Shown here one piece after another: positions 54,035 to 57,463 of a DNA stretch of 64,000 nt (positions are counted from its first letter, which is position 1; each line of letters opens with the position of its first letter). The stretch comes from Nonomuraea rubra (GTDB lineage Bacteria > Actinomycetota > Actinomycetes > Streptosporangiales > Streptosporangiaceae), in assembly GCF_014207985.1 (NCBI RefSeq), contig NZ_JACHMI010000001.1:2401001-2465000 (forward strand), read 5' to 3'. A model generated the notes under the pieces. The model searched no databases and was not told the DNA's origin. It worked only from the letters and a program-made list of their open reading frames with translations. The position numbers and the translations under genes are program-made.

Positions 54035-54907
54035 TCAGCCCAGGCGGGCCAGTGCGCCGGCCTCCAGGGCGACCCAGATCGCGCCGTCCGGTCCGACCGT
54101 CAACCCGTGCGGCTCGCTCTTCCCCTGGTCTTCACCCTTGCCCGGCACGCTGGGCAGGGGATGTTCCTCGATGAGGCCGTTCACGGTGATGCGTCCGACG
54201 CGGTCGGCCGCCCACTCCGTGAACCAGAGCGCGCCGTCGGCTCCGGTGACGATCGCGTGGGGTCGCGCCGCCCGGTCCGGGAGCGGATGCTCGGTGATCT
54301 TGCCGGTGGTGTCGATGCGCCCGATCTGGCCCGCGCCGATCTCGACGAACCAGAGGGCGCCGTCGGGCCCGAGCGTGATCCCCACTGGTGCCGCCCCCTC
54401 GGTGGGCAGCGGAAACACGGTGATCTCGCCCGTGAGCGAGCTGCGCCCGATCGCGTTGCCCTGGTTGAGGGTGAACCAGAGGGCGTCGTCGGGCCCCGCC
54501 GCGATGAACGACGGCATTCCGCCCTCCACCGGCACCTCGAACTCGGTCAACGCCCCGTCCGCCCCGATCCGGCCGATCTTGGTGGCCTCGAGCTGGGTGA
54601 ACCACATCGCTCCGTCCGGCCCGGCGGTGATCCCGTACGGCGTGGTCGTCTCGTGGACCGTGAGCCGGCCGTCGGCGGTGATGCGGCCGACGCGCCCGCC
54701 CTTGTACTCGGTGAACCACATCGCCCCGTCGGGCCCAGGCGCGATCACCGTCGGCAGCCCGTCGGCCGGGTCGAGCCGGTGGATGACGGGCTCCTCGCCG
54801 GGCACCAGCCTGCCGACGCAGCCCTGGTGGACGAGTGTGAACCAGAGGGCTCCGTCGGGCGCGGTCGCGATGCCGTACGGCGCGCCCGCTTCGATCATGG
54901 TCAACAT
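54035..54907 (-). CDS. Streptogramin B lyase (Vgb-like)
   Basis: A 290-residue seven-bladed beta-propeller of the virginiamycin B lyase family. The blade motif GPDGA-hW-FT-x4-IGRI repeats along the protein. Key residues of staphylococcal Vgb, recalled as His228, Glu268, His270 and Glu284, align with His217 (ARPHAIV), Glu265 and His267 (SEPHGL) and Glu282 (WVALEA). Vgb opens the ring of quinupristin-type cyclic depsipeptides by elimination. An ABC-F gene lies directly upstream on the same strand. ATG at 54907 has GGGGGGA upstream; a TTG at 54973 that overlaps the ABC-F stop would add 22 residues. True substrate not tested. Confidence 0.88.
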   Translation of the reverse strand: MLTMIEAGAPYGIATAPDGALWFTLVHQGCVGRLVPGEEPVIHRLDPADGLPTVIAPGPDGAMWFTEYKGGRVGRITADGRLTVHETTTPYGITAGPDGAMWFTQLEATKIGRIGADGALTEFEVPVEGGMPSFIAAGPDDALWFTLNQGNAIGRSSLTGEITVFPLPTEGAAPVGITLGPDGALWFVEIGAGQIGRIDTTGKITEHPLPDRAARPHAIVTGADGALWFTEWAADRVGRITVNGLIEEHPLPSVPGKGEDQGKSEPHGLTVGPDGAIWVALEAGALARLG

Positions 54908-54969
54908 GGATGTCCCCCCGATGATGGTCGGTCTGGATGAATGCCGGTCGGTGGTGGTCGGGGTCTCGG

Positions 54970-56802
54970 TCAACGTACGCGCCCTCCGGTCAGCTCCAGC
55001 TCGGATCCGCGGAAGCGGCGGATGAGCGCACGGTCGTGCGAGACCAGGACGAGTGCGCCCCGGTACGCGTCGAGGGCCCGTTCCAGTTCCTCGGCCAGGA
55101 CCGGTGACAGGTGGTTGGTCGGCTCGTCGAGCAGCAGCAGGTCGTGCTCGCGTGCCAGCAGCCGGGCCAGCGCCAGCCTGCGCCGCTGCCCGACCGACAG
55201 CGCGCCCATCTTCTGGTCGAGGGTGTGTGCTCTGAAGAGGCCGGTGTTCAGGAGCGCGGCGCGGCGCTCGTCGGCGTAACCCTCGTCATATGCCTCCAGC
55301 ACGCTCTGTTCGGGATCGAACGTTACTTCCTGCGGCAGGTGGCCCACCCTGCAGTCGGCCCGGTCGGCCAGGGCCTGGAGCAGCGTGGACTTGCCTGCCC
55401 CGTTGGCGCCCCGGACCAGGAGCCGCTCGCCCTGCCTGATCGTCAGGGAGTCGATCCGCAGCCGGTCGCCGATCCGCAGGTCGCGCAGCTCCACGAGCAC
55501 GCGAGCCGCCGAGCCCCCGCCAGCGTCACGGGTCGTGCGCACGGCGACGTCCCCCGCAGCCTCATGCGAGGACGTGCGCTGGGCAGTTTCCCCTGCAGCG
55601 TCACACAAGGCCGTGCGCTGGGCAGCTTCGCCCGCGGCCTCACGCCAGGCCGTGCGCGAGTCGGCTGCCCCCGGTGCCTCACGCGAGATCGTGCGTTCGG
55701 CGGGAGCGTGGGTGGCCGTGCCCTGGGCGGGCTGCTCCGCCACGTCCCCGGCGAAGCCGCGCTCGCCCGCCAGAACGGCCGCATCCGGTGGCTCTTCAGG
55801 GGCTGAGCCTGTGGCGAAGGTGCCGCGGAAGCGAAGTGGGGCCGGTGGGCGGGGCACCGGGTCGGCCTCCAGGCGGCGGAGCCGCTCGTGGGCGTTGCGG
55901 ACGCGGCCCGCCACCGAGCTCTGCACCCGCCCCGCGTTGCGGTCGTAGGCCATCTTGTTGTTGTCGCGCATCACCCGACCGGCCGCCACCCGGTGCGCGG
56001 TGGTGGACGCGTACTCGCGGACCTGCCGCACCTCCTCGCACCACGCCGCGTAGGCCTGCTCCCAGCGCGCCCTGGCCGCCGCCTTGGCCGCGAGGAAGCC
56101 GGTGTAGCCGCCTCCGAAGCGGGTGGCGGAGCCGTGCTCGACCTCGACGATCGCCGTGGCGACCCGGTCGAGGAAGACGCGGTCGTGCGAGACGACGGCG
56201 ACCGCGCCCCTGTGCTCGCGCAGCCGGCCCTCCAGCCAGGTCAGCGCCGGCTCGTCGAGGTGGTTGGTCGGCTCGTCGAGCAGCAGCGTGCGCGGCGCGG
56301 CGGCCAGCACGCAGGCCAGGCCGAGCCGCGCCTGCTCGCCGCCCGACAGGCTGGACAGCCGCCGCTCGCGGCCCACGTGGGCCAGCCCGAGGCCGTGGAA
56401 CGCCCGGTCCACGCGGGCGTCCGCCTCGTAGCCGCCGCGCAGCTCGTACGCCGTGAGCAGCTCGCCGTACTCGTCCATGACCTCCTCGGTCAGCGCGGAC
56501 TCCAGCTGTCGCATCCTGCGCTCCATGGCCCGCAGGCCGGCCAGCGCGGCATCGACCGCCTGCTGAACGGTGTGGGTGAGGGGCAACCCGAGCGTCTGGC
56601 CGAGGTAGCCGAAGTCGCCGGACACCCGCACCTCGCCGTCGTCGGGCCGCTCGACGCCGGCCAGCAGGCGCATCAGGGTGGACTTGCCCGAGCCGTTCTC
56701 GCCGACGATGCCGACGCGCTCGCCCGGCCCCACGGACAGGGAGACGCCGGTGAGGACGGCGCGCTCGCCGTAGGACTTGAAGACCTTGCGGAGACTGATC
56801 AG
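54970..56802 (-). CDS. ABC-F protein, likely ribosome protection
   Basis: A 610-residue ABC-F ATPase with two nucleotide domains and no membrane segment. NBD1: GENGSGKST, SSLSGGEQARLG, LLLDEPTNHLDEP. NBD2: GANGAGKST, LSVGQRRRLALA, LLLDEPTNHLSPV. The helical linker contains AYDRNAGRVQSSVAGRVRNA. A repeat-rich insert of about 100 residues (roughly 330-430) splits the start of NBD2. The usual first strand (LRKVFKSYGERAVLTGVSLSV) begins before the first canonical start (GTG 56733); a CTG at 56802 with GGAG seven bases upstream restores it. Antibiotic ABC-F proteins free the ribosome of drugs. It is co-directional with the Vgb-like gene and faces a TetR gene. Confidence 0.85.
   Translation of the reverse strand: MISLRKVFKSYGERAVLTGVSLSVGPGERVGIVGENGSGKSTLMRLLAGVERPDDGEVRVSGDFGYLGQTLGLPLTHTVQQAVDAALAGLRAMERRMRQLESALTEEVMDEYGELLTAYELRGGYEADARVDRAFHGLGLAHVGRERRLSSLSGGEQARLGLACVLAAAPRTLLLDEPTNHLDEPALTWLEGRLREHRGAVAVVSHDRVFLDRVATAIVEVEHGSATRFGGGYTGFLAAKAAARARWEQAYAAWCEEVRQVREYASTTAHRVAAGRVMRDNNKMAYDRNAGRVQSSVAGRVRNAHERLRRLEADPVPRPPAPLRFRGTFATGSAPEEPPDAAVLAGERGFAGDVAEQPAQGTATHAPAERTISREAPGAADSRTAWREAAGEAAQRTALCDAAGETAQRTSSHEAAGDVAVRTTRDAGGGSAARVLVELRDLRIGDRLRIDSLTIRQGERLLVRGANGAGKSTLLQALADRADCRVGHLPQEVTFDPEQSVLEAYDEGYADERRAALLNTGLFRAHTLDQKMGALSVGQRRRLALARLLAREHDLLLLDEPTNHLSPVLAEELERALDAYRGALVLVSHDRALIRRFRGSELELTGGRVR
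55505..55705 (-). repeat. In-frame 39-bp repeat in ABC-F gene
   Basis: About five degenerate copies of a 39-bp unit (for example cctcatgcgaggacgtgcgc at its start on the plus strand) encode a 13-residue series such as EAAGETAQRTxxx in the stretch before NBD2. The period keeps the frame. Confidence 0.8.
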
Positions 56803-56808
56803 GATGGA

Positions 56809-56870
56809 ACTCCAATCGCAACTGAGGTAGCGTTAGTGTGCCACGTGGGAGAAGTTAATGCAACTGGAGT
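56809..56870. promoter_or_regulatory. Shared region of ABC-F and TetR genes
   Basis: GCAACTGAGGTAG (56818-56830) is repeated as GCAACTGGAGTAG (56860-56872), matching at 11 of 13 positions. In addition ACTCCAATCGCA (56809-56820) and TGCAACTGGAGT (56859-56870) are inverted copies that place a GGAG in front of each divergent gene. The region should hold both promoters and the TetR operator. Confidence 0.6.
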
Positions 56871-56875
56871 AGTTT

Positions 56876-57463
56876 TTGGAAACGAGTAAGCGTCCTGGGG
56901 GGCGGAGCGCGCGGGTTCGTGACGCCGTGCGGCAGGCGACGCTCGCCGAGCTGGCCGAGCGGGGTTACCAGGGACTGACGGTGGAGAACGTCGCCGAGCG
57001 GTCAGGCGTGCACAAGACGACCGTCTACCGGCGCTGGGGCGGGGTCGAGGGGCTGATCTCCGACGCGCTGGAGCTGGCCAGGGACGAGCCGTGGCCGATC
57101 CCCGACACCGGCTCGGTCGAGGGGGACCTGCGGGGGGTCGTGCAGCTCGTACGCACCGGGTTCGACGATCCGGAGCTGGGGCCGGTGTCGACGGCGTTCG
57201 TGGCGGCGGCCGTACAGGATGCCGCTGCCGCGCGGGCGCTGCACGAGTTCTTCGCGGCCAGGCACGAGCAGTCGGCCGAGGTGGTGCGGCGGGCTGTGGC
57301 GCGCGGTGAGCTGCCCGACGTGGTGGATCCCAGCGAGGTGATCAGGGTGGCGGTCGCGCCCGTCTACTACCGGCTGTTCGTCGCGCACGAGCCGGTGACC
57401 GAGCGCGACGCCGACCGCGCCGCCGACGCGGCCCTGGCCGCCGCCCGCGCCGGCGTCCTGTGA
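56876..57463 (+). CDS. TetR family regulator
   Basis: A 195-residue TetR protein: LTVENVAERSGVHKTTVYRR (about residues 34-53) and a TetR_C-like end with VIRVAVAPVYYRLFVAHEPV. The start is a TTG at 56876 with GGAG six bases upstream. It faces the ABC-F gene, and is probably its repressor, relieved by a drug. Its 3' end with the stop is repeated downstream. Confidence 0.9.
   Translation: METSKRPGGRSARVRDAVRQATLAELAERGYQGLTVENVAERSGVHKTTVYRRWGGVEGLISDALELARDEPWPIPDTGSVEGDLRGVVQLVRTGFDDPELGPVSTAFVAAAVQDAAAARALHEFFAARHEQSAEVVRRAVARGELPDVVDPSEVIRVAVAPVYYRLFVAHEPVTERDADRAADAALAAARAGVL

Follow-up and report, generated by a model that had tools for sequence, protein, structure and literature searches.

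The present work concerns a locus of Nonomuraea rubra at positions 54035..57463 of a 64,000-nucleotide stretch of its chromosome (referred to as the window), in which profile searches and the reading of open reading frames have verified three genes, encoding a Vgb-family lyase, an ABC-F protein and a TetR-family protein. The initial annotation of this DNA described a lyase gene placed directly after an ABC-F gene on the same strand, with a TetR gene divergent from both, and it took them for a chromosomal unit conferring two layers of resistance to type B streptogramins. Our gene calls agree with this layout, and the sequence comparisons described below support a chromosomal operon that encodes a Vgb-type lyase together with an ABC-F protein and is probably controlled by the divergent TetR. 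The features of the locus are as follows:

54035..54907, reverse strand: predicted Vgb-family streptogramin B lyase, 290 amino acids from ATG; catalytic H217, E265, H267 and E282
54970..56802, reverse strand: ABC-F protein of 610 codons, counted from the CTG; two ABC domains, with a long repeat-bearing linker preceding the second
55550..55695, reverse strand: 39-bp imperfect tandem repeat coding for part of the variable ABC-F linker; 3.7 copies, 77% matches
56800..56802, reverse strand: probable ABC-F start codon CTG, 7 nt past GGAG (56810-56813)
56814..56835, no strand: putative operator O2, an imperfect palindrome adjoining the ABC-F ribosome-binding site
56835..56863, reverse strand: possible ABC-F/Vgb promoter, with -35 TTGCAT (56858-56863) within O1, a 17-bp spacer and -10 CACACT (56835-56840), as judged from sequence
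56856..56877, no strand: putative operator O1, an imperfect palindrome at 42 bp from O2 that overlaps the ribosome-binding site of TetR and the first two bases of the TetR start codon
56876..57463, forward strand: TetR-family repressor, 195 amino acids from TTG; PF00440 and PF16859 above cut-off

The best start of the lyase is the ATG at 54907, although a TTG at 54973, which overlaps the ABC-F stop codon, is also possible. The protein matches the Vgb_lyase profile (PF24684) with 407 bits against a curated cut-off of 50, and in the alignment with Vgb(A) the residues H228, E268, H270 and E284 correspond to H217, E265, H267 and E282 (numbered from the ATG), exactly the positions given as catalytic in the initial annotation. 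These four residues show no variation in any of the 109 non-redundant lyase rows, nor do Y18 and W243 of Vgb(A); as the rows were collected by similarity to the window lyase, part of this conservation is expected. The set takes in the window lyase, Vgb(A) and two other plasmid copies and leaves out the partial lyases L085 and L086, which are absent from the lyase tree as well. For comparison, all four catalytic residues are kept in 6 of 119 other matches of the protein search, which is a loose control because many of these proteins are longer and the matches often end short of the last positions. The predicted model of the lyase (predicted local distance difference test score of 95.8) is a seven-bladed propeller that superposes on the solved Vgb structure over 281 residues at 1.3 Å. 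Both the alignment and this model thus support the annotated fold and active site, and the His and Glu residues were not found to lie off the active-site face of the propeller, the outcome that had been named as speaking against a Vgb-type enzyme. The protein is therefore a Vgb-type lyase as securely as sequence and a predicted fold allow, and from the same evidence we strongly infer that its substrate would be a type B streptogramin.

A different reading of this enzyme is that it has the Vgb fold and the same chemistry but acts on another natural substrate (e.g., an ester-closed depsipeptide of soil neighbours), which would then be sensed by the TetR. The lyase shares only about 43% identity with Vgb(A), and its occurrence in most Nonomuraea genomes (see below) is perhaps broader than one drug class explains. 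However, the invariance of the six Vgb(A) residues noted above argues in the other direction, as does VgbC, a chromosomal lyase from another phylum (Paenibacillus), which is reported to be active on a streptogramin B (PMC5155152). We regard this alternative as rather unlikely.

The second gene of the operon encodes a protein with the domain content of an ABC-F protein, viz. ABC_tran in two stretches and ABC_tran_Xtn, all above cut-off, and two DEPTNH motifs in its open frame. Its best curated model is that of TlrC/CarA/OleB/SrmB (NF000171), which it matches with 597.6 bits, missing the cut-off of 800; the model for ribosomal protection-like ABC-F proteins (NF000355) gives 372.8 bits, slightly under the cut-off of 380. 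On the same protein the TlrC/CarA/OleB/SrmB model far outscores the Vga model (574.2 vs 186.1 bits). We suggest, on these scores, that the protein works like the TlrC/CarA/OleB/SrmB group, a claim that does not extend to membership of it. Matches of ATPase type that PADLOC returned for the ABC-F protein (the best being mad3, 163.8 bits) were rejected as a sign of a defence system and are read as shared ATPase domains; PADLOC gave no match for the lyase or the TetR. The ABC-F proteins of different species (the window, L036, L037, L049 and L068) contain variable, in-frame, repeat-like inserts at several places; these occupy the linker and, at three of the loci (L037, L049 and L068), an ATPase domain as well. 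In nine pairs of loci, the ratio of nonsynonymous to synonymous substitution (dN/dS) is 0.02-0.51 across the locus and 0.23-0.51 for the ABC-F gene, indicating purifying selection. A second ABC-F gene elsewhere in this genome (G000:C1:12604012-12605790) exceeds the producer-type cut-off, with 813 bits against 800.

The ABC-F frame stays open beyond the GTG listed as its start (56733), as far as the CTG of 56800-56802, and an in-frame CTG lies 5-8 nt past GGAG (GGGG in one case) in all 43 distinct ABC-F starts, which include the window and two remnants; L076, whose operator differs, stands outside this count and by eye has the CTG too. Where the spacing is 7 nt (34 starts), an in-frame TAA occurs at most 30 nt upstream, with no ATG, GTG or TTG between it and the CTG; in five starts with 6-nt spacing an upstream in-frame TTG overlaps the GGAG. 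As the distance between GGAG and CTG shifts by non-multiples of three, an upstream start common to all of these genes is excluded, and translation of the ABC-F gene appears to begin at the conserved CTG. Public records differ on this start: the window protein (P0121) is recorded from one codon later, at ATC, and P0228 apparently from the upstream TTG.

The divergent gene product scores above cut-off with both PF00440 (39.1 vs 24) and PF16859 (104.1 vs 32), which identifies it as a TetR-family protein. A comparison of the spacers between TetR and operon across loci exposed conserved palindromes beside the TetR gene, which are candidate binding sites and had gone unmentioned in the initial annotation. 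In 13 Actinomadura loci there is a single site that differs from TAACGCAAC-N4-GTTGCGTTA in at most one position; L149 is counted among these loci, its script-assigned second site having 7 mismatches and a spacing of 34. The Nonomuraea group has two weaker sites, and in all of the 48 two-site loci the distance from start to start is 42 bp (29 loci) or 43 bp (19 loci). A site within 4 mismatches is present in 59 of 63 distinct spacers, in comparison to 6 of 17,400 letter shuffles, a figure that measures the strength of the pattern and is no independent test of it, as the consensus was derived from the same spacers. The 12.9-Mb genome of N. rubra provides the independent test: allowing up to 3 mismatches gives a single occurrence of the consensus, and allowing up to 1 mismatch gives two of the genus form of the operator (reversed controls, none), in each case in the TetR/ABC-F spacer; hence no wider TetR regulon was found in this genome at these mismatch limits. 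The sites were also followed in 25 relatives chosen from 53. Among the 20 with the same TetR, both sites are present in 19 and one site in the remaining genome, whereas all five relatives lacking this TetR are without the sites, although three of them have kept the lyase (the other two are without it). These five genomes contain only TetR relatives of 46-51% identity (E ≤ 1e-40), in contrast to 96% for the true counterpart in G024. The presence of the sites with the TetR and their absence without it provides strong evidence, at the sequence level, that this TetR would act as a dedicated local repressor. A class-wide scan at up to 1 mismatch detected the operator in 7 of 394 genomes; a related TetR accompanies it in two of these stretches (L206 and L207), and in the other five none was found at E ≤ 1e-3 within about 3 kb.

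The distribution of the unit was examined in 98 genomes, including that of N. rubra, of which 64 gave a lyase match, and 55 stretches were fetched around the matches that were full or near-full and around two partial matches. The lyase of this clade is present in 48 of 54 Nonomuraea genomes (own included) and absent in six; 46 of these lyases were assigned by the tree and the two partial ones by identity. In 34 of the 48 genomes the order TetR, ABC-F, lyase is complete with the ABC-F in one open frame, six retain TetR and lyase with the ABC-F gone or a remnant (L039, L040, L043, L046, L058 and L073), four have the lyase with neither TetR nor ABC-F nearby (L051-L053 and L086), and in four a contig end cuts off the locus (L041, L055, L056 and L062). 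The kinase gene of the window is present at 36 of the 55 fetched loci, which indicates a chromosomal position common to many; a second group of loci (e.g., L070, L071, L074, L075 and L077) has none of three tested flanking genes. Beyond Nonomuraea, the best 80 of 138 loci, all of them named, show the full order in Microtetraspora, Streptosporangium, Planomonospora and Nocardia donostiensis; Actinomadura and Glycomyces have TetR and lyase without an ABC-F, and the Streptomyces loci among these 80 do not show the TetR/ABC-F/lyase arrangement. The gene pair, for which a search in other actinomycetes had been proposed, thus occurs in most Nonomuraea genomes and in some other genera. In the 13 Actinomadura loci (among L127-L151) the TetR is directly divergent from the lyase across the single near-perfect palindrome, with no ABC-F. 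Lyase, ABC-F and TetR have correlated protein distances across 40 loci (r 0.76 to 0.89; 0 of 2000 permutations in each case), an exception being Nocardia, where TetR and lyase have different nearest rows. In Glycomyces terrestris (L120) both lyase and TetR are nearest to the Nonomuraea copy L071, which suggests that this pair was transferred as a unit.

The ABC-F gene has been lost repeatedly. Remnants of it with differing ends lie between TetR and lyase in L040 (residues 554-609), L043 (1-68), L046 (1-48 and 546-609) and L058 (499-609), whereas L039 and L073 contain no ABC-F piece at the threshold of this search (E ≤ 1e-8), both operators still preceding the lyase. N. longispora and N. cypriaca are among the relatives in which no intact ABC-F is present. 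At least nine changes of ABC-F presence within the clade are needed on the lyase tree, which was made by a quick method and has 32 of 106 inner branches unsupported. As lyase, TetR and operators are retained through these losses, the second layer would be optional; the proposal of a two-layer resistance unit hence stands with regard to the operon but needs to be amended with regard to its ABC-F layer. In two deposited proteins, P0001 and P0056, a lyase is joined to leftovers of an ABC-F. In another genus of the same family, a related TetR (58%) and a near-perfect palindrome face an ABC-F gene (L211, 4490-6930), with no lyase in 13 kb, an arrangement indicating a modular build of the switch and the two effectors.

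These losses, together with the weak start codon of the ABC-F gene, also accord with the view that this protein is mainly an antibiotic-responsive translation factor shaping the stress response, with resistance coming from the lyase alone; a regulatory role of Streptomyces antibiotic resistance (ARE) ABC-F proteins is reported (PMC12421871). However, the gene is under purifying selection and is maintained in one open frame in 34 of the 48 genomes, and the arrangement in L211 is compatible with either role. We consider such a function improbable as the main one.

Comparison with known systems also bears on the origin of the unit, which had been thought possibly ancestral to that of staphylococci. 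In the two Bacillota plasmid stretches examined, one from Enterococcus and one from Priestia, the gene following Vgb is Vat, no ABC-F was found at E ≤ 1e-3, and the lyases form a separate long branch on the lyase tree. These two plasmids thus pair resistance to type B with resistance to type A, whereas the window unit pairs destruction of the drug with presumed ribosome protection. Further, staphylococcal Vga proteins are associated with streptogramin A (PMC9332259), and the Vga model is the one far outscored on the window ABC-F. We therefore reject the ancestral relationship as unsupported. Chromosomal lyases of the same family are known from Streptomyces coelicolor (vgb) and Paenibacillus (VgbC), and lyases of S. 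coelicolor and Bordetella have reportedly been assayed, which our literature search did not confirm. The S. coelicolor vgb is reported to belong to the global WblC/WhiB7 regulon (PMC7157823), and a private TetR with two operators would thus be a different regulatory solution.

The producer proteins of the TlrC/CarA/OleB/SrmB group likewise have two ABC domains with a linker, and the naming of the best ABC-F model after them is what would favour self-resistance of the organism to a streptogramin of its own. The window ABC-F differs from them by its score below cut-off, its CTG start and its variable repeat inserts. Moreover, the 64-kb window contains no condensation domain of a non-ribosomal peptide synthetase, the nearest being about 109 kb from the unit, which bears out the annotated lack of a visible biosynthetic cluster nearby. 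Synthesis of a type B streptogramin should need six condensation domains and an epimerase. The largest set in the genome (8.01-8.03 Mb) has about five, in a survey that made no search for 3-hydroxypicolinate or phenylglycine genes, and this shortfall against the general requirement counts against self-resistance, as does the presence of the unit across most of the genus. We do not favour this explanation and hold it to be very improbable.

Divergent genes with two palindromic operators between them are also the layout of the TetR/TetA type, in which the repressor gene faces an efflux pump, whereas here it faces an enzyme and an ABC-F protein. Taken together, the locus probably provides a defence against type B streptogramins that is inducible and confined to a single locus, with the lyase as its core function and the ABC-F as an optional layer of ribosome protection. 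At rest, TetR dimers would occupy O1 and O2, which are separated by about four helical turns; from the position of O1 over the TetR start and the proposed -35 of the operon, and of O2 in the 5' leader abutting the ABC-F ribosome-binding site, we propose that TetR represses both its own gene and the operon. Upon entry of a type B streptogramin, or of a related drug of the exit tunnel, TetR would release the DNA, the ABC-F would then push the drug off the ribosome, and the lyase would open its ring by C-O elimination. The fuller proposal, which we put forward tentatively, is that a private TetR acts as the sensor of a type B streptogramin, switching this one locus via two operators, the operon combining an enzyme with an optional protector that is dosed down by its CTG start and repeatedly discarded, with no streptogramin cluster beside it.

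Several observations weigh against the defence proposed here. Of the 48 lyase-bearing Nonomuraea genomes, 10 have no ABC-F or just a remnant of it, and four of these 10 are also without the TetR; hence joint action of lyase and ABC-F is not obligatory. The ABC-F protein is under the cut-offs of its best models (the two noted above and another with 443.4 bits against 1050), and the lyase is under the NCBIfam cut-offs for the Vgb(A) and Vgb(B) of staphylococci and enterococci (243.5 and 248.9 bits vs 600), so that it is filed in neither allele group. With regard to the switch, L076 and L150 are without an operator within 7 mismatches and the TetR match of L150 is only a fragment, G014 has only one of the two sites, G045 carries a single further site elsewhere, the reversed pattern used as control gave one match in each of 2 of the 25 relatives, and a consensus scan detected no sigma-70-like promoter.

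The component genes are known, whereas the private switch that they share and the recurrence of ABC-F loss among relatives appear undescribed; our literature searches, which covered titles and abstracts among the matches listed with subscription papers mostly outside their reach, found no published account of a TetR/ABC-F/Vgb set. If the proposed function is correct, most of a soil genus carries a regulated chromosomal defence against type B streptogramins, and its TetR might be put to use as a natural drug sensor. Loci with both genes, with an ABC-F remnant and with the lyase alone form a natural series in which the added value of ribosome protection can be tested directly once the drug is being destroyed, and the conserved CTG provides a clean case for studying non-standard initiation in actinomycetes. 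Lastly, an 11.85-Mb record of Nonomuraea gerenzanensis (NZ_LT559118.1) that is filed in the plasmid collection is, to judge from its size, evidently a chromosome.

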